The position numbers were made by a program, and so were the translations under genes. Below the pieces are notes generated by a model. That model ran no database searches and was not told where the DNA came from. It saw nothing but the letters and a program-made list of their open reading frames with translations. A stretch of 43,266 nt of DNA, taken from a virus. This document shows, piece after piece, positions 9,858-43,216 of this stretch; position 1 is the first letter of the stretch, and each line of letters starts with the position of its first letter. Where the stretch lies: positions 1-43,266 of IMG/VR virus record IMGVR_UViG_3300049847_000569; one strand, written 5' to 3'.

Positions 9858-10161
9858 AACCGACGAGTCAAAACTCGCCCGTTTCGACTGGTACTCTTCC
9901 CAGTGGGCGTGGCACTATCGCCGGCGAAATAAGAGTCTCTGGCACACCCAACAAGCCCGGTGGTTTCGCCGGCAATGGCGCCGGATCCCGGGGCTTTTTG
10001 TCCTTATTGTCGGGCGAACAATCCGAAAGCACAGCGCTAAAATCGCCAACAGTATCACAATGAACAATACCCTCTTCGCGCGACTCAAGGAAAGAACAAA
10101 TGAGACCAACCGGACCAATTCCTGCCGAGGTTATGGTGATCGGGGAGGCTCCCGGCCGTGA
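9829..10161 (+). CDS. Hypothetical basic protein
   Basis: 110 residues from ATG 9829. Trp/Arg-rich (WAWHYRRRNKSLW...RWFRRQWRRIPGLFVLIVG) with one weak hydrophobic segment. Its first eight residues, MRPTGPIP, are identical to the first eight of the downstream polymerase, although the codons differ. It overlaps the polymerase gene by 62 nt. No family is recognised; it may be an insertion that duplicated the polymerase gene start. Confidence 0.5.
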   Translation: MRPTGPIPPETDESKLARFDWYSSQWAWHYRRRNKSLWHTQQARWFRRQWRRIPGLFVLIVGRTIRKHSAKIANSITMNNTLFARLKERTNETNRTNSCRGYGDRGGSRP

Positions 10162-12526
10162 AGAAGAACTCCAAGGCATCCCCTTCGTCGGCCCCTCTGG
10201 GGCACTTCTCAATAGTCTTCTGCAGAAAGCCGGCCTCTCGCGGGAAAGCGCCTTCGTTACTAACGTCGTCCGGGAACGTCCTCCGGGCAACGATATCTCG
10301 GCGTGGATATCTGACCGTAAGACTCCGCCCGGCCCGGAGTGGAAGCACATTTTCGGCCGGTGGTGTCATCCGAATGTCGCTCGTGGTGTGGATTCCCTCT
10401 ACGCCGAAATCGAAGAAGTCTCCCCGAAGATAATCATCGCCCTCGGAAACACGCCTCTCTGGGCGCTTTCGGGGAATGTCGGCATCATGAAATGGCGGGG
10501 CTCCCGCCTTTCCCCGCCTGGAGTGCAGTGCAATGTCCTCCCTACCATCCATCCTGCGGCCTGCCTCCGCCAGCGCGAGCTTACGCCGATACTCCTCATG
10601 GACCTCAAGCGCGCCCGGGCCATCTACGAGGGGACCCAGACTCCCCGGGTGTATAAGTTCCTCGCTCCGCCGTCGTTCGACGATGCGATGGGATATCTCG
10701 AAAATCTCCTGCGAAGAGCAACCGATAGTCGAGATTCCTTGGTACTTTCCGGAGACCTCGAAACCCGCTCCGGCCACATCGCCTGCTTCGGTATCGCCGA
10801 TTCAGCCAGCACCGCTATATGCATTCCCTTCCTTCGAGATTCTGCGGATTCCCTTTTCTACTGGACCGAAGAACAAGAAACAGTTCTAATTCGCAAGATT
10901 ATCCAACTCTTCCTCTCCCCCAACATAACCTGGATCGGCCAAAACTACCTCTACGACTGCCAATACTTCCACCGCTTTTGGGGCGCCGTGCCGGCCAAAA
11001 TCTGGGACACGATGATCGGCCACCATTCAATATACAGCAACCTCCGAAAAGGTCTCGACTTCCTCTCCTCGATGTACGCCCAGGATCACGTCTATTGGAA
11101 GGACGAAATCAAGAACTGGGACCCCGCGATTGGAGAGCAACAACTGTGGGCCTACAACTGCAAAGATTGTTGTATCACCTACGAAATCTGGGACAAAATC
11201 ATCGAGGAGCAAGCCTCTGAGGGAGTCTCCGAGCATTTCTATTTCCAACAATCTCTCTTCATGCCGGTCTTGAGGATGATGAACCGAGGAATCCGCCTCG
11301 ACACCGATCAACGCACCGTCCTCCGCCGCGACCTCACAAAACTCGGCATCGACCGCCAGGAAAAACTCGACTATATCGCCGGCCACCCCCTCAACCCCAA
11401 ATCTCCGGCGCAACTCCTCAAATTCTTCTACGAAGACCTCAAAATCCCCGGGATTCGGAACCTCGACACCGAAGCCCTAACCACAAACGCCGGCGCGATG
11501 TTAACCATTGCCACTCGCCACCCAATTCTCAAACCCCTCTGTCAACTCATCCTCGAACTCCGCTCTATCGGCGTCTTTATCTCCACCTTCATAAACGCCG
11601 ATTTGGATGTCGATGGAAGGATGCGCTGCTCTTTCGCCGTGGCGGGGACAAAAACCTTCCGGTTCTCCTCCTCCGAGAACGCCTTCAACTCAGGGATGAA
11701 TCTCCAAAACGTCCCAAAGAATACCTCTGGCCGTGCCCGCCTAAAAAGCGACGATCTTATTCTCCCCAATATCCGCAAACTCTTCATCCCTGACCCGGGA
11801 TACACCTTCTTCGACCTCGACCTCGACCGCGCGGATATGCAAGTCGTCGCGGCAGAGGCGGATGATAAACTCCTAAAAGAGATCCTCGCAAAAGGTATCG
11901 ACATCCACTGCATGTCCGCCGCCGAAATCTACGGCGTGAAAGGAATCCCCATCGATGAACTCGTCGAAACCCACCCCAACTACCGCGATCACCGAGCTAA
12001 AATTGGCGAAGGGAACCGTGATAAGACTAAAAACGGCGGCCACGCTACAGATTACGGCGTCCACGACCGGAAACTCGCAATTACTCTTGGAATCACCGTC
12101 GCGGAAGCCGCTCGTTTTCGCGCTCGATGGTTTGGGCTCTTTCCTGGTATTAAGAAATGGCATGAACGCGTCGAAACCGAGGTCCGGCTTAGAGGGTTCC
12201 TCCAAAACAAATTCGGCGCCCGTTTCTATCTCCAAGGCGACTTCGACCTCCCGGAATTCCTCGCCTGGACCCCAAGCAGCACCGTCGCCGGGGTCATTAA
12301 CCGCGCTCTTGTCCGAATCGATAATGCGCGCGAAAGCGGCGAAAGCAGCATCGAACTCCTCCTGCAAGTGCACGACTCCCTTGCCGGACAGTATCTTACA
12401 ACCCGCGCTGAGCATGAATTGCGCCTCCTGCGGGAAAAGGCTCAGATTACAATCCCCTACGACGACCCGCTCGTGATTCCGGTGGGGATTAAAACATCCG
12501 AGAAGTCTTGGGGAGATTGTAAGTGA
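10100..12526 (+). CDS. Uracil-DNA glycosylase / family A DNA polymerase fusion
   Basis: 808 residues, AAGGAAAG upstream of ATG. Residues 11-180 form a family 4-like UDG: GEAPG at 15-19 with the following E-G-x-P-F-V-G-P-S-G block, and HPA at 151-153. The N-terminal Cys pair of Fe-S family 4 enzymes is missing. Next comes a 3'-5' exonuclease (DLE 219-221, N282/D286, Y352/D356), then the polymerase: motif A around D574, motif B R640-K644-Y652-G653, motif C HDS 758-760. No 5' nuclease domain. It is the replicative polymerase with built-in uracil surveillance. Three normally conserved sites differ (see findings). Confidence 0.92.
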   Translation: MRPTGPIPAEVMVIGEAPGREEELQGIPFVGPSGALLNSLLQKAGLSRESAFVTNVVRERPPGNDISAWISDRKTPPGPEWKHIFGRWCHPNVARGVDSLYAEIEEVSPKIIIALGNTPLWALSGNVGIMKWRGSRLSPPGVQCNVLPTIHPAACLRQRELTPILLMDLKRARAIYEGTQTPRVYKFLAPPSFDDAMGYLENLLRRATDSRDSLVLSGDLETRSGHIACFGIADSASTAICIPFLRDSADSLFYWTEEQETVLIRKIIQLFLSPNITWIGQNYLYDCQYFHRFWGAVPAKIWDTMIGHHSIYSNLRKGLDFLSSMYAQDHVYWKDEIKNWDPAIGEQQLWAYNCKDCCITYEIWDKIIEEQASEGVSEHFYFQQSLFMPVLRMMNRGIRLDTDQRTVLRRDLTKLGIDRQEKLDYIAGHPLNPKSPAQLLKFFYEDLKIPGIRNLDTEALTTNAGAMLTIATRHPILKPLCQLILELRSIGVFISTFINADLDVDGRMRCSFAVAGTKTFRFSSSENAFNSGMNLQNVPKNTSGRARLKSDDLILPNIRKLFIPDPGYTFFDLDLDRADMQVVAAEADDKLLKEILAKGIDIHCMSAAEIYGVKGIPIDELVETHPNYRDHRAKIGEGNRDKTKNGGHATDYGVHDRKLAITLGITVAEAARFRARWFGLFPGIKKWHERVETEVRLRGFLQNKFGARFYLQGDFDLPEFLAWTPSSTVAGVINRALVRIDNARESGESSIELLLQVHDSLAGQYLTTRAEHELRLLREKAQITIPYDDPLVIPVGIKTSEKSWGDCK

Positions 12527-13719
12527 GCCAAAGAGAACTCCCCGATTGGCTCTCGGAATTCGTTCGAAATACGGAGTGGGGCGAGCCGCCGCAGAGGGTG
12601 TATTTCTGGGTCGGCGTCGCCGCCATCGCCGCCGCGTTGCAGCGCCGGGTATGGATCGATATGGGCACCTTCCAATGGCTCCCCAACCTCTACACCGTCA
12701 TCGTCGGCCCGCCGGGGATCATCAACAAATCCACAACCTGCGACCTCGGCTTTGCGCAACTCCTATACCACGTCAAAAATATCCACTTCGGCGCGAGTAC
12801 GTTAACGTGGCAGTCCCTCTACGACGCCTTTACTGAGGTCCACGAAACCATCCAACTCGATGACAGGACCCAAATCAACCAAAATGCCCTCGTCATCGTC
12901 TCGCGGGAATTCGGAAACACCATCAACCCCACCGACACCGAACTAATCGACCAACTCGTCGCGTGTTGGGACGGGATGCGGATGGCGAAGCGCACCCGTA
13001 TGGACGGGGAGATTGTCATCGAAACCCCCTCCCTCAACATAATCGGCTGCACGACGCCAAGTTGGATTTCAGAGAACGTCCCCCAATATCTCATCGGCGG
13101 CGGTTTGACCTCGCGGATGCTCTTCGTCTACGCCGATAAGAAAGAGAGATACGTCGCCTACCCGAAAAGGGTCATGCCGCTCGACTACCGCGAACGCCAA
13201 GCGCGCCTTCTCCGCGACTTAACCCGCATCGCCCAGTTAAAAGGGGAATTCCTCCTCACCGAAGAGGCGTTGGATTGGGGCACGGCGTGGTACGAAGACT
13301 TCCACAAAAACCAAGCGCAGAAGCTCGATAAGACCCTAATCGGCGGCTACATCGCGCGGAAGCAAACCCTCGTGCATAAGGTCGCCATGTGCCTCTCCGC
13401 CTCAAGCGGGGATAGCCTCACAATAACCCTCACCGACCTCCAACGCGCCGAGGCGTACATAACCAAACTCGAAGAACACATGCCCCTCGTCTACTCCAAA
13501 ATCGGGATGAGTAAAGAAAGCTCCGCCGCCGAAACCATCATCGCGTTTATCGAACGCAACGCCGACAAAGAAGGGTGGGTGCCGTGGACCGTGATTTATC
13601 GGTATATGCACAAAGCCTTCCCCAACCCCGAACACCTGGAGGATATCGTCCGCGGCCTCCTCGAATCGGGGCAGGTCAAAATCAACAAATCCACAAACAG
13701 CTTGAGGTTGAATAAATGA
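12523..13719 (+). CDS. DUF3987-like primase-associated helicase/ATPase
   Basis: 398 residues, overlapping the polymerase gene by 4 nt. The P-loop region VGPPGIINKSTT (G62-S70) departs from the canonical GxxxxGKS spacing, as in some phage DUF3987 proteins. A Walker B-like strand ALVIVSREFG and a later R-rich helix follow, and the C-terminal 80 residues look like a winged helix (VPWTVIYRYMHKAF...VRGLLESGQVKI). Likely replicative helicase or helicase-primase component acting with the polymerase. No separate DnaB or primase gene is visible. Confidence 0.7.
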   Translation: MSQRELPDWLSEFVRNTEWGEPPQRVYFWVGVAAIAAALQRRVWIDMGTFQWLPNLYTVIVGPPGIINKSTTCDLGFAQLLYHVKNIHFGASTLTWQSLYDAFTEVHETIQLDDRTQINQNALVIVSREFGNTINPTDTELIDQLVACWDGMRMAKRTRMDGEIVIETPSLNIIGCTTPSWISENVPQYLIGGGLTSRMLFVYADKKERYVAYPKRVMPLDYRERQARLLRDLTRIAQLKGEFLLTEEALDWGTAWYEDFHKNQAQKLDKTLIGGYIARKQTLVHKVAMCLSASSGDSLTITLTDLQRAEAYITKLEEHMPLVYSKIGMSKESSAAETIIAFIERNADKEGWVPWTVIYRYMHKAFPNPEHLEDIVRGLLESGQVKINKSTNSLRLNK

Positions 13720-13883: not shown

Positions 13884-14158
13884 CCAAAGGCCGCAAAGTC
13901 CTTCTCCCGAAGGTCTATTCCGAGGAATACTGCTGCCTGTGGGGGTATCTCACCCTCTGCCGCGAGAGGGGAGAGACCTACCGCGAAATGGCCGGCTTTA
14001 TCGGAGTGCCATATGAGCAAATCCGAAAGGCGTATCGGTTCCTCTCCCGAGGAAAATACGCCTGCGCGAAACGGGGAACCCTCTGCCTCTCACCCGTAAT
14101 AGAGGACATCCAGCGTGGCGCTGACGGCGGTCTCGATGATCCGGAGCGAGGAGATTGA
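13880..14158 (+). CDS. Putative helix-turn-helix protein
   Basis: 92 residues. Residues 30-60 (GETYREMAGFIGVPYEQIRKAYRFLSRGKYACAKRG) have the spacing of a helix-turn-helix with a basic end. It is the last gene of the rightward operon. Its final 23 codons overlap, in opposite orientation, the end of the leftward structural operon, with no terminator between them. A DNA-binding role is inference. Confidence 0.55.
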   Translation: MTKGRKVLLPKVYSEEYCCLWGYLTLCRERGETYREMAGFIGVPYEQIRKAYRFLSRGKYACAKRGTLCLSPVIEDIQRGADGGLDDPERGD

Positions 14159-14380
14159 TTGTGAGGCGTAGATATAAGCCTCACCAACGGGGATCAACAT
14201 CCCGAGGGAGGCCGTCGGTGCCGTGCCGTCGTCCCGGATTCGGACCGTTTGCGCCCCGGGCCGAAGGATCGCAACCTGCGTCCCCGCCGGCACCGTCAAC
14301 GCCTGCGCCGTGGCAAGGGAAGTCGCGGCGAAGTTCTGATACCCCTTCGCCACCATACCCCAGTTGTTTGCCTCTTTCAT
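14090..14380 (-). CDS. Small structural-type protein
   Basis: 96 residues, beta-rich and Ala/Thr-rich (QALTVPAGTQVAILRPGAQTVRIRDDG...SISSLRIIETAVSATLDVLYYG). This pattern is common in small virion-associated proteins coded after tail fibres. It is the last gene of the leftward operon and ends inside the opposing gene. No specific function assigned. Confidence 0.6.
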   Translation of the reverse strand: MKEANNWGMVAKGYQNFAATSLATAQALTVPAGTQVAILRPGAQTVRIRDDGTAPTASLGMLIPVGEAYIYASQSISSLRIIETAVSATLDVLYYG

Positions 14381-31515: not shown

Positions 31516-33804
31516 CTATTTCGACACAACCGACTTAAAGCCGGTTGGGGTTTTGATGACCTCTCTCGGTGCGTTCGCGGATTCAGTCATCTTGTCCATG
31601 GCGGCCTGAAGCGCGGCGAGGGCCTGCGTCACCCCTTGCATGAGGGGGGCGGTCTGCGCCGCCGCTTGTTGTTGACTCTTCTGGGCCACTTTCGCGCCGG
31701 TTGCGGCGGAAGTTAACTCCATCTTCTGCTTTGTGAAAGTGGCTTCATTTTGCGCCTGCTTCGCCTGTTCCGAGGCGGCCTTCGCCTGATCTTGGGCCGT
31801 CATAATGGCCTTCTGCGCATCAAGCTCGGCACGGACGACCCTAACCTCGGCGTCGAATTCCTTCTTCGCCGTTTCGAGGTTTCGCTGCTCGTCTTGGATA
31901 GCGGTGAGTTGATCTTTGAGCTTGGATTGGGTTTGCTCAAGCTGGGCTTGTTGCTGTTTAAGGTCTTGGTCTTTCTTTTCCTGCTCGGGGGTGGGGCCAG
32001 TCTGCGCCGGCGGGGGCTGCTGGACGGCCATAATCGAGTCCACGATAGCGAGACCGAATTTGAACCTCTGGCAAACGGCGACCAAAATCGACTTCGCGGC
32101 GGCAAGGCCCGTCGGCCCGAGTTGGACGAGAGGCGCCAACCCCGCCATGAGTTGTCCCATCGCGTTCATAAACTCACCGACTTCTTGCTTATCGGTGGCG
32201 GTGTCCAAATCTACGGTGGAGTTGGATTGGACATTGATTGTGTAAGTGCGGTTCGCGTCGGAAGCGATCTGCTTCACGACGGATTCGATGGAGGGTTTTG
32301 AAGCGGTAGCTTGGGCTTGTTGGAGTTGTTTTAGGCCCTCGGGCGGCGGAGGAACGCCTTGTGCTTGCATTTGCGAGCCGAGCATCATAAGGTGCTGGAC
32401 GGTCGCGGCGGCGGCGGCCTTCTCCTGCTCCGTGGGGAGGCCCATCTGGATCATCGCATTCCACTGCGCGGGAGGAACCCTCTTCGCGCCGCAATCCAGC
32501 GCGAGGCGATACAGGTCCCTCACATAATCCGCAACGGCTTTCTGCATATCTCTTAAGCGGATGGTCCCCCATTTGTTTTTGAGGTCCTGTGCAGTAGCCG
32601 TCTCACTCGCGACAGAAGAGCCGCGAAGAATGTCCGAAATGCCGGTAAGTTCATAAATGACCGCCTTTATCTGTTGCCGGGCTTGGTACAGTTCTGTCGC
32701 GACCTGCACGAGTTTTTCGATGGGCAGCATCCAAATCTGCCGCTCGAAGCCCCCATTTTGCGCCAACATCATCGATTCTTTGGCGGGGAAGAGTTTGTTC
32801 TCAGAATCGTCGGAGGAGAGGATGTGCTCCATTTCCGTGCCGAGGAGGAGATTATACGCGCCCCTCACCTTAATCGCGGAGAGGACCTTATTCAACCGCA
32901 CGGTGACGCGGTTTAGCTCTTCGGCTTGATTGCGATAGTATTGATAGAGGGGGATCGGAACGATCTTCCCGGGTTTCCGGGTTAGGAGCAGCGGGCCGGG
33001 GGTGGGGAAGAAGCCCTCCAACCCAAGAACGTCATCCTCGGATTTTAATTCGAGTTCTTTCCAATCCTCACAGAGGAAATAGACCTTCTTCTCGGCCTTA
33101 ACCCAGAGTTCATAGACAATCGTGCCCTTTGGAGAGGCGGATTTTCCCTCTCCCTCCTCGCCCGGGCCGGCGACGTAGTTATCTTCGTCCTCGCCGGGAA
33201 TTTGGAATTGGTCGAAAAGCTCCTGCTTCGTCAGTTCGTGGCGGAACGCAACCCAGGGGACTTTCGCCCATTTACGGGCCGGCCCCCAGATTAGGCCCTT
33301 GTAGTGGCCCGACTCGAAACAAAGGGGGATGGGGCGGTTATCGTAGTAGCGGAGGCGGATGAAGCCCATCCCCGGCACGAGGGACGAGAGGGTCGTCTCC
33401 GACATCGCATCGTCGAGGGATTCTTCGCCGGGATTCGAGGGGTCGGAGAGGACGGTTAGGAACCGTTCCGCCGCAATCGGCACCGGGCCGAGGTCAATCT
33501 CTTTGAAACGGCTCCGAACGTCCGGCTTCGGAGTTGCAGAGTACAGGGACGGCTTTATAACCTCAGTATTGGAATAGAGAATGTTGTACGGCTCAAGCTG
33601 CTCCGTATCTTTTTCGGAGGAGTAGATCGTAACCGCATTTTCCGCGGCCTTCCACCACCCACTCTCGAAGAATTTCTCACGGGCTTGTATCTTATCCAGC
33701 CACTCCCGCGCCTCGGAGAGGCGTTCTTTCGCGCCGCCCGAGGCGTCCTCTGCACGAGTGGTCTCCGCGCTGCCTTCGGCAGGGTTTACATAATTATCAC
33801 TCAC
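31516..33804 (-). CDS. Portal protein, P22-like
   Basis: 762 residues with a GTG start in a GTGA overlap with the large terminase. The N-terminal and central parts hold typical portal helices and beta segments (NILYSNTEVIKPSLYSATPKPDVRSRF; YQYYRNQAEELNRVTVRLNKVL; the ELTGISDILRG loop). From about residue 560 a very long Gln/Lys/Glu/Ala coiled region follows (QEKKDQDLKQQQAQLEQTQSKLKDQL), analogous to the P22 portal barrel. Forms the dodecameric DNA channel. Confidence 0.9.
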   Translation of the reverse strand: MSDNYVNPAEGSAETTRAEDASGGAKERLSEAREWLDKIQAREKFFESGWWKAAENAVTIYSSEKDTEQLEPYNILYSNTEVIKPSLYSATPKPDVRSRFKEIDLGPVPIAAERFLTVLSDPSNPGEESLDDAMSETTLSSLVPGMGFIRLRYYDNRPIPLCFESGHYKGLIWGPARKWAKVPWVAFRHELTKQELFDQFQIPGEDEDNYVAGPGEEGEGKSASPKGTIVYELWVKAEKKVYFLCEDWKELELKSEDDVLGLEGFFPTPGPLLLTRKPGKIVPIPLYQYYRNQAEELNRVTVRLNKVLSAIKVRGAYNLLLGTEMEHILSSDDSENKLFPAKESMMLAQNGGFERQIWMLPIEKLVQVATELYQARQQIKAVIYELTGISDILRGSSVASETATAQDLKNKWGTIRLRDMQKAVADYVRDLYRLALDCGAKRVPPAQWNAMIQMGLPTEQEKAAAAATVQHLMMLGSQMQAQGVPPPPEGLKQLQQAQATASKPSIESVVKQIASDANRTYTINVQSNSTVDLDTATDKQEVGEFMNAMGQLMAGLAPLVQLGPTGLAAAKSILVAVCQRFKFGLAIVDSIMAVQQPPPAQTGPTPEQEKKDQDLKQQQAQLEQTQSKLKDQLTAIQDEQRNLETAKKEFDAEVRVVRAELDAQKAIMTAQDQAKAASEQAKQAQNEATFTKQKMELTSAATGAKVAQKSQQQAAAQTAPLMQGVTQALAALQAAMDKMTESANAPREVIKTPTGFKSVVSK

Positions 33805-35252
33805 AGGCGGGCATTCCTAGAAAGGGAGCGGGCACTCTGCCTCTTGATAAGCTCGTCGATGGTGGGGTAAGAGCGCGCCTTCGTCCAGTCGATTGGGGTA
33901 ATTGGCTTTTTAAGGTCCTCAATCGAGGGGCGCGACATTACAGCGTAGCGGGTTTCGTCCGCGGCGTGGTCTTCGCCGTCGGAGTCGAGGTCTTCGGGGT
34001 TTTTCTCATCATGCTGGAGATAGGGGAGGGTGCGGATTGTGTGCTCGCACGATTCGTGGAAGTAGATTAGCGCGGGGGAGATAGCGAGCCTCTTTCGGAG
34101 TTGTTCCCAACCCGGCTGGCGCGCATTATCCCCCCGAAACCAAGAGCACTTCTCGATAATCATCATTTCCGCGATCGAGGGGCCGCCGTTGGTGATGAAG
34201 ATGGACGGATCAGACACGCCGTAGGAGAGGCGTTTGATGTCCTCCTCGCGCTTAATCACGCCCTGGGCGACTTGCGCGGCGTCCATTTTCAGCCCTTTAT
34301 TCGGCCGCCCATTCCATCCATACCATTCACGGAATTTGATGAGGGCGCCTCGGGGGAAGTTTGTTCCGCCATCCGCGACCGCATACCACCCGACGCAGAA
34401 GGGGGCGGAAGAGCCCCAGTCCAGCGCGCGGAACCTTGTCCAGTGTTCAGGGAGATCAATCTTCCCACCGAAAACGTGTCGATCCTCGGAAAACTCGGAA
34501 AAGAAGGTCCCATCGACGCCATTCCAATCTCCTTCGAGCCAGGCTTTTACGAGTTGGGGAGAACCCGTCTCCCGGAGACGCATGATATACGTCGGGTCGT
34601 TTTGAAGGAGTTTGGGGTTGTCCTTCAGTTTGGAGGGGATGAAGACACGATCGATTTCCGCCGTTACGGTTTCGCCGTCCGGGAGTTCGATGTCTTCGGT
34701 CTCTTTCACGACGAGATAGCCGGTTGGGCAGGGATCGACGTAGCGTTCTTTGACCCAATGGTGGCCGGGGCCGCCAGGGTTGCCGGTCATGCGGATGCCG
34801 CAAGGAACGCCCTGCGCTGAGCGGAGAGTCCCTTTGAGCTTCATTATCGGGTCAGGGAAGGGGAAGTTGGTAACTTCCTCAACGTAGATTCGGGTGTATT
34901 CGTGGCCCTGATATTCCTCCGCGTCTTCGTCGCGTTCGAGATACGCGAATTTCAAGGTCGCGCCGTTGGGCATGATGAGTTCTTTTTTCTGCTCATGCCA
35001 CTTCGCGCCAATTTTCGCGGTGTAGCGGCGGAACCGCTTGATAACGTCGGTGAGTTGGGTTAGTTTCCGGCGGATGAAGAGGCCGGAGGCGTGCTCGCCG
35101 TAGGCGTTGGAATGGGCGAACCAGTCGCCGATGCTGCCTTCTGTCTTCCCCCCTCCCCGAGCGCCGCCGAAGAAGACCTCGAACACTGGGCACGAAACGA
35201 GGTCCGTCTGCGGGCCCGGTTGAGCGGCCCAAAGAATCGTAGGCTCAATCAC
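33801..35252 (-). CDS. terL: Terminase large subunit
   Basis: 483 residues, GTG start with AGGA upstream. ATPase motifs: GGARGGGKT (29-37) as Walker A, RIYVEE (121-126) as Walker B, and TGNPGG (156-161) as coupling motif. The nuclease domain begins with ALDWGSSAPF (D278). Pumps DNA into the prohead and cuts it. It overlaps the portal gene by 4 nt and the short upstream gene by 8 nt. Confidence 0.93.
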   Translation of the reverse strand: MIEPTILWAAQPGPQTDLVSCPVFEVFFGGARGGGKTEGSIGDWFAHSNAYGEHASGLFIRRKLTQLTDVIKRFRRYTAKIGAKWHEQKKELIMPNGATLKFAYLERDEDAEEYQGHEYTRIYVEEVTNFPFPDPIMKLKGTLRSAQGVPCGIRMTGNPGGPGHHWVKERYVDPCPTGYLVVKETEDIELPDGETVTAEIDRVFIPSKLKDNPKLLQNDPTYIMRLRETGSPQLVKAWLEGDWNGVDGTFFSEFSEDRHVFGGKIDLPEHWTRFRALDWGSSAPFCVGWYAVADGGTNFPRGALIKFREWYGWNGRPNKGLKMDAAQVAQGVIKREEDIKRLSYGVSDPSIFITNGGPSIAEMMIIEKCSWFRGDNARQPGWEQLRKRLAISPALIYFHESCEHTIRTLPYLQHDEKNPEDLDSDGEDHAADETRYAVMSRPSIEDLKKPITPIDWTKARSYPTIDELIKRQSARSLSRNARL

Positions 35253-35977: not shown

Positions 35978-36291
35978 TTCCCGATGGCTTTCCAGAGTTG
36001 GGCGATATCCCCCGTTTTCGCGGCGAGGAAGAAGATAACCGTCAAAACCACCGCCTTCGCGGAGAAGAGAATAAATCGGCCGAAGGAAAGTTGGTGTTTT
36101 ACGTCGATTATGGCATTTTCCATTTCTTTTAGTCGGCCTTCCTCGGCGTGGATGTGGAGTTCGAGGCGTTTCGCGAGGAGGTCAATCTTCTCATTCGAGT
36201 GGCGAATGGCGGTGGTTATTTCGCCAAGCTCCCGGGCTATTTGCTCGCCGTTCATAAGGGGTACCTCGTAGGTGGGGAAGACAGCGAGCAT
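35974..36291 (-). CDS. Coiled-coil membrane protein of lysis cluster
   Basis: 105 residues from ATG 36291 (TAATG overlap with the holin gene); ATG 36255 with GAGG upstream is a shorter alternative. Residues 15-70 are an amphipathic helix (GEITTAIRHSNEKIDLLAKRLELHIHAEEGRLKEMENAI), then one hydrophobic segment near 82-98. An inverted arrangement compared with Rz-type spanins (TM at the C-terminus). Exact lysis role unknown. Confidence 0.55.
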   Translation of the reverse strand: MLAVFPTYEVPLMNGEQIARELGEITTAIRHSNEKIDLLAKRLELHIHAEEGRLKEMENAIIDVKHQLSFGRFILFSAKAVVLTVIFFLAAKTGDIAQLWKAIGK

Positions 36292-36728
36292 TATTTGGTG
36301 AGACCGCGGGACTTCTCGAAGGAGCGGAAGCCGGAATAGCCGACATAGCCTACGCCGAAGAGAGTCCAGAGGGAATCGGGGACCGCCGCGAGCCATGCTT
36401 GCATGCCGGCCGCGACTTGGACCGCTATTTCGGGCCGGAAGGCCGATAAAACCCCCATCGGGAGGGCGGCGAGGATCATGATATAGATGACGTACATGAA
36501 ACTCGGCCGCGCACGGGAGGTCCAGGGGTCGGAACTTTGCGCCTCCGCGAGGATGGCGGACATGGAGACTTTTAACTCCTCCATCGCGCCCTCTTGTTGG
36601 AGTTGGGCGAGGGCGAGGGTTGCCGCGGCGCGCTCTTTCTCCTGCGCGATCTTGTCGGGGAAGATTTTATCGATAACCTTCCCGCCGAAATCGAAGATTG
36701 CGCCGAGGCCGGCGATGTCAAGAGACAT
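36291..36728 (-). CDS. Holin, 3TM family
   Basis: 145 residues. A basic/amphipathic N-terminal half is followed by D-P-W-T-S-R-A-R-P-S-F-M-Y-V-I-Y, the hallmark of the phage 3TM holin family, and hydrophobic segments near 78-95, 100-115 and 118-135. Permeabilises the inner membrane to release endolysin. Adjacent to the GH108 endolysin. Confidence 0.8.
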   Translation of the reverse strand: MSLDIAGLGAIFDFGGKVIDKIFPDKIAQEKERAAATLALAQLQQEGAMEELKVSMSAILAEAQSSDPWTSRARPSFMYVIYIMILAALPMGVLSAFRPEIAVQVAAGMQAWLAAVPDSLWTLFGVGYVGYSGFRSFEKSRGLTK

Positions 36729-36897
36729 TTTTGCTCTCCTCTTCGGCTTTCTTCTCGATAAGCTCTTTGGATTGGAGGGTTTTATCGTTGGCTTGGGAGA
36801 AAATCTTCTGGATGAGGTCGTTTGAACGGCGCCACGGAAGTTCGGCGAGGCCGTTTATGAGGGTATCAACCTCGGCGGGTTCAAGGAGGAGGTACAT
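36718..36897 (-). CDS. Short conserved lysis-cluster protein
   Basis: 59 residues from ATG 36897 (MYLLLEPAEVDTLINGLAEL), then a Lys/Glu-rich tail. The longer frame upstream overlaps the endolysin gene and is Pro/Ser-rich noise. This short protein is commonly coded next to phage endolysins without known role. Overlaps endolysin by 17 nt and holin by 11 nt. Confidence 0.6.
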   Translation of the reverse strand: MYLLLEPAEVDTLINGLAELPWRRSNDLIQKIFSQANDKTLQSKELIEKKAEEESKNVS

Positions 36898-37396
36898 CGC
36901 AGTCCTTTTGGAGGTATTCGAGGTTAGAGCAAACGCGCTCGATCCACCCCCGGCCAAAAGCGGGCCAAGTGGGGAGTTTGGTGTAGAAACGAGTCCTCTC
37001 GGTGAGGAAGGAAAGGCCGATAAAAAGGGGGCCGGGGGCTCCATTCGCAGCGGCGAGGGTTTTCGGGCCGATTATGCCGTCATCTTCGACGGAGAGGGCG
37101 TGTTGGAGCCACTTTATCGCCTGAATCGGGCCGTGGTTGACGGCGGCGTCGAAAACCTGGAAAGCGAGGGGAGGGGGAAGGCCGTCGCAGCGGGGCGTTT
37201 CCCAATATTCGTTCTTGTATATCTCGACGGCGGTCTCTCGGGGGAGGAAGCGCATTTCGCCTTTATAGCCCCATTTCGCGGCGGTGCGGGAGGTTATGCC
37301 CCAATTCGTCGCACCGCCGGGGTCGAGGGGGTTGTTGACGTATTTTCCCTCATGGCCGAGGACGCGGGAAATGAAGAGGGGGAAGTTATCGGCCAT
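36881..37396 (-). CDS. Endolysin, GH108 muramidase
   Basis: 171 residues. The catalytic motif HEGKYVNNPLDPGGATNWGI with E16 identifies glycoside hydrolase family 108, followed by a Leu/Lys-rich linker and a PG-binding-3-type C-terminus (VEDDGIIGPKTLAAAN). It cleaves the beta-1,4 bond between MurNAc and GlcNAc. No signal or SAR segment is seen at the N-terminus, so release depends on the holin. Confidence 0.9.
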   Translation of the reverse strand: MADNFPLFISRVLGHEGKYVNNPLDPGGATNWGITSRTAAKWGYKGEMRFLPRETAVEIYKNEYWETPRCDGLPPPLAFQVFDAAVNHGPIQAIKWLQHALSVEDDGIIGPKTLAAANGAPGPLFIGLSFLTERTRFYTKLPTWPAFGRGWIERVCSNLEYLQKDCDVPPP

Positions 37397-37721: not shown

Positions 37722-38207
37722 TTATTCCCCTAAACCCCGGGGTGAGACGTCGATAACTTCGGGAACCCCCCGGCCCTTCGATGCGGCGAGCCATTGGGCG
37801 GAGGTTTGTGCGACGGGGGGAAGTTGGACGATGTAGTTATTCGTCTGCGCGAAGGGATTGATGGGGGCGGGGGCGCCCTCAACGCCGAGTTTCGCGATGG
37901 CGATTAACTCGTTCGTCTTCATCGGCGCGTTAGCGTCCATCCGCTCGATTAGCTTATCGAGGGAGCGTTTCGCGGCGGCCTCGACGCGCTCTTTGACGGA
38001 GGCGCGGAGGATAGGGTCGGAAATCTCGGCTTTTCGCTCCGCAAGGCGGTTTTTGAAGGCGTCGGTATTGACCATGATCGAAACCCACGACTCGGAGTAG
38101 CCGCAAAGGCGCGCGAGGTCGCCTTGGGAGATAAGGGGGTTCGCCACGATCGCCTCGATGAAGGCGTCATGCCAATAATGGACGTGAGAAAGGCCGGGCT
38201 TGTCCAT
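37722..38207 (-). CDS. Terminase small subunit (probable)
   Basis: 161 residues from ATG 38207. Residues 10-50 contain a helix-turn-helix-like segment (ISQGDLARLCGYSESWVSIMVNTDAFKNRL), followed by an oligomerisation-type helix and a Pro-rich C-terminus. Promoter-proximal first gene of the packaging/structural operon. Would recognise the packaging start and load the large terminase. A TTG farther upstream (38246) is unlikely. Separation from terL by the lysis genes is unusual but known in podoviruses. Confidence 0.7.
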   Translation of the reverse strand: MDKPGLSHVHYWHDAFIEAIVANPLISQGDLARLCGYSESWVSIMVNTDAFKNRLAERKAEISDPILRASVKERVEAAAKRSLDKLIERMDANAPMKTNELIAIAKLGVEGAPAPINPFAQTNNYIVQLPPVAQTSAQWLAASKGRGVPEVIDVSPRGLGE

Positions 38208-38414
38208 AGACCTGCGGATTTTCGGCCAGCGGCGCGGGGTTGTCAACCAAAGAAGGGCAATTTGGGGCCGTATTCACTGTCGGTGTACAGCCCGGCTAAA
38301 CCCCCCTCACCCGCCCCCCGGCCTGCGGGGAGATACCCCCCTCGCTGCGCTCGGGAGAATGCGGGGAATATGATAGTACACGCTCACAGACTTTCACCCC
38401 GCCGCGCGCGCAGT

Positions 38415-38679
38415 GGATGCGCAGTAGTAGCCCGTTCTCCCGGAATGGGGGGATTTCGTATCAGGCTGAGTTGATGTTGTGAGAAAGAGACATAACTTCC
38501 CTGTGTTGCTTTTCTGCCACCTCTTGTATGTGTGTGTGTACTTACTAATTTTTTTTTAAATATGTAACAACACATACAGACAGCAGCGTCTCTTTTTCAC
38601 AACACTGTAACAGAGCCGTGGCGCCAAAGTACCCCCCACACGGGAGAACGGTCACCTACTGGGGAACCACTGCGCATCC
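38415..38679. repeat. Large nested inverted duplication
   Basis: Four ordered blocks are repeated in inverted order about a centre near 38545: GGATGCGCAGT (38415-38425 with 38669-38679), CCGTTCTCCCG (38432-38442 with 38641-38651), TGGGGGG (38446-38452 with 38632-38638) and TGTTGTGAGAAAGAGAC (38475-38491 with 38588-38604, one mismatch). AGTAG/CTACT also matches. An inner TGTATGTGT/ACACATACA pair (38525-38533, 38570-38578) frames the core. Spacing differs by small gaps, so it is a diverged inverted duplication rather than a chance palindrome. Could be an origin, packaging or regulatory site. Confidence 0.85.
38540..38562. other. AT-rich core of the inverted duplication
   Basis: A 23-base A/T-rich stretch with nine T followed by AAATAT, the most AT-rich tract in a GC-rich genome, at the centre of symmetry of the large inverted duplication and just after a GT-rich run. 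Compatible with a DNA-unwinding element or a strong promoter spacer. No experimental evidence. Confidence 0.5.
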
Positions 38680-38691
38680 CTTGCGGCAAAC

Positions 38692-39109: not shown

Positions 39110-39394
39110 ATGACAACCCGCTATCAAACCGCGCTTGCATTCGCCCGCCGCGAGCCGGCGCAATGCCACAACGCGCGCACCCAGGGCACGAGCTACTGGC
39201 TACACGGCCACCTTATCGCACTGCGCATCGCACCCACAATCGTGCGGTTTAACTGGTGCGGCTGGCACACGCCAACCACAGCCGCGCATATGAACGACAT
39301 CCTGCGCGCGCTCGGGGTTAATATGCGTGTCTCCTACGCGCAAGCGCGGGAGGGCAAAGCCGATGAAGTTTTCGACATCACGGTGCCCCAATGA
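39110..39394 (+). CDS. Hypothetical protein
   Basis: 94 residues, AGGAG upstream. Ala/Arg/Trp-rich (SYWLHGHLIALRIAPTIVRFNWCGWHTPTTAAHMNDILRALG). It looks like a compact alpha/beta protein. ATGA overlap couples it to the AAA+ gene, so it may be an accessory subunit, though this is inference. Confidence 0.6.
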   Translation: MTTRYQTALAFARREPAQCHNARTQGTSYWLHGHLIALRIAPTIVRFNWCGWHTPTTAAHMNDILRALGVNMRVSYAQAREGKADEVFDITVPQ

Positions 39395-40641
39395 ACGCAC
39401 CCTATCACGACATCGCGGCCGCCCGCGCGGCGCTGGAAGCCGCAAACGTTGTCCACCTCGTACCCGCCGCGCGAATGGCGGGTTTCAGGTTCCGCATCGG
39501 CCTGACAAAGGCGGGAATCATCGAAGGGCTAGCACGCTACCCCGCGATGATGGCTGCGGCCGTTATGGCGCTTCAGCGCTTGCAAGCGGGGGATTCTCCC
39601 CCCGCGCCACCCCGCGCGCTGGCCGCAGACTGGCTCGACGACGATAACGCGCCGGCCCCTCCCCCCGCGCCCATTCTCACGCCCCCAACACCACAACCCG
39701 AACCGAGGGGCGACGTTGACCTTTCCGAGTACGCGAAACGCACATGGACGCGCGAGGAAATTCTCGTGGCCGAGGGGCGCTCCACCCGGCGCATGGATGC
39801 AGTGCAGGCTATGGTCGCCATTGCGCAACAGGATATTAAGGCGCTCCAAGAATCGCGCCCGATTGTCATCGCGCTGCCCGAACGACCCGAGCCGATCCCC
39901 GTTCACGGGGTCGCCCATCCCCAATTCCCGGACCTACTCCTCACCCTCCGCGCCGGCTTGCATTGCATGCTAGTCGGCCCAGCCGGCTCAGGAAAAACCT
40001 ACTCCGCCGAACAAGCCGCAATCATCCTCGCGAAGAAGTTTTTCGCCCAAGGCGCCGTCACCTACGCGCATGAGTTACTAGGCTACATCGACGCCCATTC
40101 GCGCTACGTGCGGACCCAGTTCCGTGACGCATTCGAGCATGGGGGTATCATCCTACTCGATGAATTCGACGCGAGTAGCCCCGAGGCCGCGCTGGTGGTC
40201 AATGCGGGGCTTGCGAACGGTTTCTGCGCCTTCCCCGACGGGCTAGTGCAAAAACACCCCGAGTTCGTCTGCATCGTCGGCGCAAACACGGACGGTTCCG
40301 GCGCGACTATCAGCTACTCCGGCCGGGCGCGACTCGACGGCGCGTTTCTGGACCGGTTCATCATGTTCCGGTGGAATGTTGACCCACGCATCGAGGCACA
40401 GCTATCCGCCGGGAATGGGGAATGGCTTGAACTAGTCCGCGCCGTTCGCGCGTTCGCGCTCAAGCGGGACATCCTCGACGTGGTTGCAACCCCTCGCGCC
40501 GTCAAATTCGGGGCGGCCCTGCTCCAGCAGGGCATGCCGCGCGCTGCGGTTCTCGAACGCACCCTAAAGCGCGGCGCACTCGTTGAAGCATGGCCCGAAG
40601 TCGAACGCTTGCCCATCGTCGCTAACTTTCTGAGGGGCTAA
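39391..40641 (+). CDS. MoxR/CbbQ/CobS-type AAA+ ATPase
   Basis: 416 residues. An N-terminal helical region (1-65) and a Pro-rich linker (70-106) precede a AAA+ core: Walker A GPAGSGKT (196-203), Walker B ILLDEFD (254-260), sensor 1 GANT (297-300) and a candidate arginine finger in DRF (R322). MoxR-type proteins act as chaperones that remodel or activate partner proteins, often together with a VWA-domain partner. No VWA domain is coded next door. Codon use is different from the structural operon, with more GCG and CGC. Confidence 0.85.
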   Translation: MNAPYHDIAAARAALEAANVVHLVPAARMAGFRFRIGLTKAGIIEGLARYPAMMAAAVMALQRLQAGDSPPAPPRALAADWLDDDNAPAPPPAPILTPPTPQPEPRGDVDLSEYAKRTWTREEILVAEGRSTRRMDAVQAMVAIAQQDIKALQESRPIVIALPERPEPIPVHGVAHPQFPDLLLTLRAGLHCMLVGPAGSGKTYSAEQAAIILAKKFFAQGAVTYAHELLGYIDAHSRYVRTQFRDAFEHGGIILLDEFDASSPEAALVVNAGLANGFCAFPDGLVQKHPEFVCIVGANTDGSGATISYSGRARLDGAFLDRFIMFRWNVDPRIEAQLSAGNGEWLELVRAVRAFALKRDILDVVATPRAVKFGAALLQQGMPRAAVLERTLKRGALVEAWPEVERLPIVANFLRG

Positions 40642-40642
40642 C

Positions 40643-41458
40643 ATGCTTTTCTCCCCCGACGTAATGCAAGCCTACCGGCGCGAAACCATCAATACCGGCA
40701 AGGGCGCGCTCCCTATGTTTGTCTGGCAGGGTTCCTATTCCGCATGGCTCGAACACGCCCGGGCCATGCATGCCGACTCGCGGCGCTATCGGGGTCTACT
40801 CGCGGAGCGCTGTGATGAGGGATGGGCCGGCATGCCCGGGCAGGATGTCGCAGCCCTGCTATCTACCGGCATCATCGACGCCGCGCTGCGGGACTTCGAA
40901 GCCGCGCAGGCAAAGCTACTCAACGACAATCTCCTCCCCGGCTCGATGCAGCCCGCAGTCGCGGGCGGAGCGTGGATTGTGCCCCTCGTGCTCGCTAACA
41001 ACCCCATGCCCGCCCGCATCCGCACGCGCTCGAAACTCCCCCCGCGCTCCCTCGACCTGTGCACAAACGTGTCATCGCACATCAACCCCGCCGACGTAAC
41101 CGCAAGCATGGCCCGCATCGCGAAAGCTGCTTGGCTTTATATCCTCGCGGGTGGCGCCGTCACCATTACGGCACACTACATCCACAAATTTAGCAAGCCC
41201 TGCGATGGGCAGTGGGGGGTGTTGCATAGTATCAAGGTGCCAATCACGAATTGCGCGGCGCTCGCCAGTGCATGCTCGGTGCAGCACTATCGGGGGATGG
41301 ACATAATTGCGGCACAGTGTCTGTCGGGCGACCCGCATGATGGGCTGCCGCTGGTCAAGTGGAAGCGGCCGGGGCTGCTCCATGTCACGGGCAGGCTCGA
41401 AGATGATGCCAAGGCGCGAGCCGCGCTGCGCATCGAGGATGCCCCCCACGCACCATAG
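40643..41458 (+). CDS. Unrecognised partner of AAA+ ATPase
   Basis: 271 residues starting one base after the ATPase stop. N-terminal half: aromatic/charged helices (SYSAWLEHARAMHADSRRYRGLLAERCDEGWAGM). C-terminal half: alternating strands and helices (RSLDLCTNVSSHINPADVTASMARIAKAAWLYILAGGAVTIT), somewhat like the fold of VWA-type partners, but I see no MIDAS D-x-S-x-S. The spacing implies a functional pair with the ATPase. May resemble the DUF7192-type phage proteins; unconfirmed. Confidence 0.6.
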   Translation: MLFSPDVMQAYRRETINTGKGALPMFVWQGSYSAWLEHARAMHADSRRYRGLLAERCDEGWAGMPGQDVAALLSTGIIDAALRDFEAAQAKLLNDNLLPGSMQPAVAGGAWIVPLVLANNPMPARIRTRSKLPPRSLDLCTNVSSHINPADVTASMARIAKAAWLYILAGGAVTITAHYIHKFSKPCDGQWGVLHSIKVPITNCAALASACSVQHYRGMDIIAAQCLSGDPHDGLPLVKWKRPGLLHVTGRLEDDAKARAALRIEDAPHAP

Positions 41459-42475: not shown

Positions 42476-42502
42476 CCCTCACCCCTCCTTGGAGACTTAA
42501 CC

Positions 42503-43066
42503 ATGTCTGATGTTCAAGCCCCTGTCCAGACCCGCAACCGTCAAATGTCTTTCACCGTCCTCGACACGGGCGACATTCGCGCCGACTTCGGCGAAGGCAT
42601 CGAGCCCTTCACCTTCAACCCCGCGACCATGCCCGAAACGCTATTTCCAACCGCCGTCGCTAAGGGCGTGATCGCGAACCTGTCCGGCGCCACGGCCAAG
42701 CTCACCGGCGACGACCGCAACGGCGCGAATCTCCGCAAGGCCGTCGTCGGCCGCTGGGATTTGCTAAAGTCCGGTATCTGGGGCGCACCGCGCGGCGAAG
42801 GCGCGGGCGAAGAGGTTTCGATGGAAGCCGAAGCCGCGCACGTTTTCCGCATCAAGCGCGGCGAGAAGAAGGGCCAGCCCTACACCGGCACCCTCGACCA
42901 ATCCGCCGCCGACTTCGCGGCCCTGTCCGATGAGCAAACCGCCAAGCTCAAGGACACCCCCCTGTACAAACTCGCCTATGCCGAAGTCAAGGCCGCCCGC
43001 AGCGCCGCGAAGCTGGCGAAGCTCCAAAAGAAGGCCGCCGAAGCCGGCGACGATGGGGACTTCTAA
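42503..43066 (+). CDS. Hypothetical protein of AAA+ module
   Basis: 187 residues, GGAG upstream. N-terminal half is beta-type with DxGxI/F motifs (SFTVLDTGDIRADFGEGIEPFTFNP), the middle is charged, and the C-terminus is an Ala/Lys-rich helix (EVKAARSAAKLAKLQKKAAEAGDDGDF). Such Lys/Ala tails often bind nucleic acid or form oligomers. High codon bias suggests strong expression from the 42198 promoter. Function unknown. Confidence 0.6.
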   Translation: MSDVQAPVQTRNRQMSFTVLDTGDIRADFGEGIEPFTFNPATMPETLFPTAVAKGVIANLSGATAKLTGDDRNGANLRKAVVGRWDLLKSGIWGAPRGEGAGEEVSMEAEAAHVFRIKRGEKKGQPYTGTLDQSAADFAALSDEQTAKLKDTPLYKLAYAEVKAARSAAKLAKLQKKAAEAGDDGDF

Positions 43067-43203: not shown

Positions 43204-43216
43204 TAGGGTTTCCCCT
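43204..43216 (+). repeat. TAGGGTTTCCCCT repeat, copy 2
   Basis: Second exact copy, shortly after the right-operon terminator and just before a weak promoter-like TTGCCC-16-TACACT (43219-43246) and ATG 43253. Suggests a recurrent upstream element for phage genes. Confidence 0.45.

Follow-up and report, generated by a model that had tools for sequence, protein, structure and literature searches.

What is the function of a long mirrored stretch of DNA that lies beside the small terminase gene of an uncultured phage? Replication origins and packaging sites can seldom be recognized in such phages because their sequences are not conserved, and the stretch could be either of them. It lies in a record of 43,266 bases, the whole of which is called the window here. 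The late genes run leftward from a putative small terminase gene, terS (37722-38207), through the large terminase gene, terL (33801-35252), to the portal gene (31516-33804), and the early genes run rightward and, when the map is closed into a circle, include those for a PDDEXK nuclease, a RecA-like ATPase, a PolA polymerase and a DUF3987 protein. Between terS and terL are lysis genes for a glycosyl hydrolase 108 endolysin and a GTA-type 3TM holin (36881-37396 and 36291-36728). The first large early genes, one for an AAA+ protein (39391-40641, MoxR/CobS-like by Pfam and PHROGs) and its neighbour (40643-41458), are restricted to the closest relatives of the window, and a scan for relatives with the AAA+ gene found none. 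Among named genomes, MW202489 and, judged by its polymerase, Microcystis phage Mel-JY34 are the nearest; a nucleotide search of named phages returned no relatives.

The mirrored stretch and its surroundings

An earlier note, made from the letters alone, had described an inverted duplication around an AT-rich core at this place and proposed an alignment against shuffled controls. Positions 38400-38545 align with the reverse complement of 38545-38690 at a local score of 59, which none of 2,000 dinucleotide shuffles equalled (mean 15.7, sd 2.4, maximum 34), and nowhere in the rest of the window does the inverted-repeat score exceed 29. The mirrored stretch is thus confirmed as real and above chance. 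Its parts, and the neighbouring terminase gene, are as follows.

37722-38207, minus strand: putative small terminase, an HTH protein also found in those element-bearing relatives that were examined
38408-38491, no strand assigned: left arm, on the terS side; matched by BLASTN to the inverted right arm at 73% identity (E 3e-6)
38525-38533, no strand assigned: inner exact arm segment TGTATGTGT, pairing with 38570-38578 at 100%
38549-38557, minus strand: A9 tract on the terS-sense strand (T9 on the plus strand), the core of the element, also found in relatives; the sole A8+ or T8+ run in the window
38563-38569, plus strand: TGTAACA motif beside the tract, common to a subset of relatives
38570-38578, no strand assigned: inner exact arm segment ACACATACA, pairing with 38525-38533 at 100%
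38588-38675, no strand assigned: right arm, on the early-gene side; found by BLASTN and by local alignment with the left arm

The T9 run and the AAATATGTAACA that follows it make up the AT core. The inverted order of the blocks that had been noticed holds, but not their exactness: the arms are imperfect inverted copies with indels (73-76% identity), in which 38408-38456 pairs with 38627-38675 (49 nt, 76%), 38475-38491 with 38588-38604 (17 nt, 94%), and the inner segments over 9 nt. As a single strand, the element is predicted to fold into one long hairpin (z -8.9 as DNA, -8.4 as RNA). An assembly inversion, which might have produced such arms artificially, is excluded because the same architecture, in other sequence, recurs in assemblies made independently and in the genome of an isolate.

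The neighbour of the element deserves some caution in its naming. The HTH of the putative TerS resembles TerS DNA-binding domains and other HTHs equally, and the C-terminal half is of low confidence; Foldseek with the TerS model gave no significant match, and a PDB sequence search with the protein returned nothing meaningful. Weak homologs are found directly upstream of TerL elsewhere, and the annotated terminase of PaMx41, PaP2 and Neko is matched weakly (E 4e-4 to 5e-4).

In the window, the element does sit by terS between two divergent operons, as had been pointed out, and duplicated sites there could give both operons the same regulation. The placement at the divergence point does not extend to MW202489 and Mel-JY34, however, whose elements are found about 2 kb into the early side, and the most promoter-like sequence in the window, TTGACA at 38246 on the minus strand, falls outside the element. 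We therefore consider a shared transcription-control region quite unlikely; of the three functions that the earlier note offered, a replication origin is the best explanation, and a pac-type site is its main rival.

The element in related phages

About 60 related uncultured phages carry a comparable element at the same place, around a short A run, each with its own sequence. Among relatives found through TerL, inverted repeats of different sequence occupy the same place, and an A8-A11 tract marks the centre of most. In a search for the tract together with TGTAACA, the GC-rich matches were confirmed relatives of this phage, except for one short case, and the AT-rich matches look like chance. 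A scan with a TerS profile gave 80 loci, and most of the non-redundant ones with enough upstream sequence have an A8-12 tract followed by T at 0.35-2.4 kb upstream of terS, a proximity that a pac site would also show. At these loci, the tract often carries the strongest inverted repeat, with arms of about 60-200 bp; spacers between the arms of relatives vary from 13 to about 200 nt, and the element appears to be non-coding.

Thirty-three long genomes allow the architecture to be counted: the A strand is the terS-sense strand in 32, the tract is the sole A8+ run of the genome in 28, and the repeat of the element is the best inverted repeat of the genome in 24. There are exceptions, such as G013 and G014, which have the tract without a strong repeat. 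The TerS proteins of these relatives are only 29-59% identical to that of the window, and yet position, core and polarity are fixed. Absence of the arms from relatives had been named as an outcome that would count against the element, and the opposite was found, in that the architecture is kept and the sequence is not.

Several observations were made alongside this survey. One genome (G017, loci L319-L321) has further strong inverted repeats away from the element, with scores of 65, 57 and 55, and bacterial contigs fetched through TerL contain inverted repeats that score 340 (L275, near 14110-14370) and 224 (L268, near 2830). The best inverted repeat of the PaP2/PaMx41 group (42480-42583 in PaMx41, locus L480) occupies a non-coding stretch some 3 kb upstream of terS, lacks the A tract and is possibly a distant version of the element; in PaMx41, PaP2 and Neko, this kind of repeat is the top one of the genome but weak (34-39), without an A tract, and these phages were counted neither for nor against. 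Metagenome contigs of the group often break inside the element, many of them ending within 50-250 bp of the A tract. We considered these as physical genome ends, but the ends of one contig overlap in an 8-bp tandem repeat (L110/G023) and those of another resemble two variants of one arm (L065/G005), and contig ends were therefore treated as assembly breaks. Thus, many records of the group that are labelled linear may be complete circles.

The arms match each other within a genome (median arm-to-arm score 55.5) and not between genomes (median about 18), with the sole exception of close pairs, for example L095/L097 and L085/L086, whose arms can be aligned with each other at roughly 70-80%. From this, we infer that the symmetry is maintained or repeatedly renewed, and the suggestion of two once identical arms that diverged was too simple. 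Fast turnover, together with the simple tandem repeats that some arms contain, might also be expected of a palindrome-forming hot spot without any selected function, but position, core and polarity would then hardly be fixed across phages with such different TerS proteins, and we regard this explanation as very improbable.

Read toward the centre, the arms have a pyrimidine bias, and their most biased 5-mer is TTCCC (55 v 17 arms). Pooled arms repeat themselves at lags of 8-12 (peak 11, z 13) and 20-23 (peak 22, z 6), and the lag peak remains after obvious tandem repeats are removed; control segments of the same genomes show the 3-bp codon signal only, the helical lags being absent. Genome by genome, repetition reaches z of at least 3 at one of five lags in 24 of 48, compared with none of 42 controls, which were tested at three lags. 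In the arms of the window itself, helical repetition is not significant, so that the combination of an AT-rich unwinding element with helically spaced repeats, typical of iteron-type origins, is found in the pooled group and is not significant in the window alone. As far as such patterns can tell, the arms look like two arrays of protein sites that mirror each other across an easily melted core, with the sites of each array spaced by one helical turn.

The arms could instead form the stem of a long structured RNA, and both the predicted RNA hairpin and a slight excess of wobble-type mismatches when the early-sense strand is read (60 v 35) are in keeping with this. Nevertheless, transversions account for 158 of the 253 mismatches, near the random expectation, the spacers are variable, and Rfam covariance models gave no match to the window at E 1. 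The mismatch types and the Rfam result disfavour the RNA stem, which we regard as very unlikely.

Replication or packaging

PolA, the DUF3987 protein and the RecA-like ATPase were found in all 23 long genomes first examined, and the nuclease in nearly all. Two replication genes of the window are listed below.

10100-12526, plus strand: PolA-family DNA polymerase (phrog_17), part of the co-occurring replication module, in 23/23 of those genomes
12523-13719, plus strand: DUF3987 protein (PF13148), modelled as an MCM-like AAA+ helicase

A PolA scan gave 19 long records. TerS is present in 17 of them; for TerL, nine show no match and three a weak one. Ten of these last 12 carry TerS, and all ten have an upstream A7-A14 tract with a strong-to-moderate repeat; the other two (G042 and G044) have PolA without TerS or the element, and their contigs were judged to be broken at that junction. 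Conversely, the element is absent from 33 loci that have TerL homologs and no TerS match, and 17 of the corresponding virus records lack PolA. Relatives found by TerL among genome contigs have marginal terS matches at most, with no A8+ tract in those listed. Because it is kept in ten genomes with a swapped or barely matched TerL and absent from 33 TerL-only loci, the element, judged by these sequence comparisons, does not follow TerL. Seven of the genomes (G026, G028, G030, G035, G038, G040 and G041, loci L445-L465) keep TerS and have a TerL without detectable similarity in place of the usual one, which is an unusual split of the two terminase subunits.

Inside the group, TerS and PolA co-occur and are inseparable. 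Outgroups that have PolA and DUF3987 and no detectable relative of this TerS carry comparable elements, namely MW202554 (inverted-repeat score 80, AT core without A8), a Desulfofustis phage (A17, score 46) and the Caulobacter phage Kuura (A12, weak arms scoring 26, GGGCAGTT repeats). On these three distant genomes, the module pattern leans toward replication.

A possible partner is the DUF3987 protein, a family predicted to be helicases of mobile elements (PMC5862659). Its AF2 model, which is of high confidence (pLDDT 88.6), matches MCM helicases (VIA Z 20.9, rmsd 3.1, 275 residues, 6mii), so that an MCM-type AAA+ core is present by predicted structure only, and its C-terminus has, by eye, a secondary-structure pattern typical of a winged helix; a PDB sequence search gave no meaningful match. 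The annotation of the PaMx41 counterpart reports an HHpred match to archaeal Orc2. The MCM likeness of the model is one of fold, not of function, and the protein is a candidate initiator or helicase that may act at the element.

Taken together, we give about an even chance to the element being the replication origin of the phage. Unwinding would take place at the A/T tract and in the AT-rich DNA around it, with melting at the tract, and each of the mirrored arms would offer a phage initiator a series of sites spaced by about one helical turn. The initiator may build one complex on each side and open the centre, leading to bidirectional replication. The DUF3987 protein would be the likely loaded or acting factor, and the phage PolA polymerase would act after it. 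In favour of an origin are the AT core between mirrored, phased arrays; the conserved position, core and polarity in the 33 long genomes; the retention of the element where TerL is unrelated or barely matched and PolA is kept, and its absence from the 33 TerL-only loci, 17 of whose virus records lack PolA; the three outgroup elements; and the MCM-like model and the similar layouts of the SPP1 origins and herpes simplex OriS. Against it are the inseparability of TerS and PolA inside the group, the lack of significant helical repetition in the window's own arms, and a mapped terminal repeat that starts inside the element of Kuura. GC skew, which had been suggested as a check, lends no support: the cumulative maximum of the window is at 38490, but the sign reverses in VS-ABTNL-3, MW202554, the Desulfofustis phage and PaMx41, and because it differs between phages, the skew appears to follow gene direction.

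The case of Kuura, whose genome ends have been mapped to a 606-bp direct terminal repeat (PMC9959647), leads to the main rival, a packaging-initiation or genome-end site. This repeat, which PhageTerm identified, begins between the two weak arms at 43208, a distance of 56 bp from the A12 tract that precedes it. In SF6 and SPP1, TerS rings present HTHs one turn apart and select bent DNA with little sequence specificity (PMC4737164), and SPP1 TerS binds both sides of the cut (PMC6316719); such a choice of DNA would explain phasing without sequence conservation. These three points, the start of the Kuura repeat, the ring geometry and the two-sided binding, make packaging a serious rival, in which small-terminase rings might wrap both arms in a pacL-core-pacR layout and the large terminase might cut in or near the AT core, setting the terminal repeat or the first headful cut. 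That the element is always upstream of terS, with the A strand almost always in the terS sense, points the same way. On the other hand, the element stays when TerL is swapped, and it is absent where weak TerS homologs lie upstream of TerL in phages without PolA. The Kuura element may not be the same one, given its weak arms and G-rich left arm, and it is in this outgroup only that a genome end has been mapped at the element. To our knowledge, no described pac site has mirrored arms of 60-200 bp. We thus take a packaging or genome-end site, as well as the ring wrapping and the central cut that it would involve, to be possible and on balance unlikely.

Known systems and the meaning of the element

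The literature that we searched, with subscription journals mostly outside its scope, contained no earlier description of such an element, and searches on Mel-JY34, on an A tract with an inverted repeat and terminase, and on a T7 hairpin found no papers. Origins and packaging sites as kinds are known, but we know of no combination of mirrored phased arms, a unique A tract and fast arm turnover.

The closest parallels differ from the element in various ways. The oriL and oriR of SPP1, a dsDNA phage of similar size, also have repeat arrays beside an AT-rich core, but these are direct repeats with an AT-rich DUE, gp38 is the protein that binds them, and oriL is located inside gene 38 (PMC6316719), whereas the arrays of our element are mirrored on both sides, non-coding and different in sequence between genomes. 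Herpes simplex OriS and oriL have inverted protein sites around an AT-rich spacer and can form hairpins (PMC12543377), although they consist of two or three defined boxes of known sequence, used by a different initiator in an unrelated virus. The pacL-pacC-pacR site of SPP1 and SF6 is likewise near terS, with flanks bound by a TerS ring of weak sequence specificity (PMC6316719, PMC4737164), but that of SPP1 overlaps both gene 1 and the promoters of this gene, and its repeats are direct, without long mirrored arms. The terminal-repeat boundary of Kuura (OQ067476; PMC9959647) shares a unique A12 followed by T, two-sided repeat arrays and a place upstream of the terminase genes, and differs in its weak inverted symmetry, in a left arm that is G-rich instead of C-rich, and in terminase proteins that are not detectably related.

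With rather low confidence, we propose that the element may represent an undescribed and widespread class of origin, in which mirrored, helically phased arrays flank a genome-unique A tract, an MCM-like AAA+ helicase is loaded from both sides, and sites turn over fast while the arms are kept matched. Since place, polarity, the unique A tract and the mirrored phased arms are conserved where sequence is not, the site is recognizable by its architecture in dozens of genomes, with no need of homology. As an origin, it would link an MCM-like helicase of the phage to a defined site and offer a small bacterial-virus model of symmetric helicase loading, and if it is a packaging site, these phages would provide a natural series in which to test the selection of DNA by TerS rings through shape and phasing.
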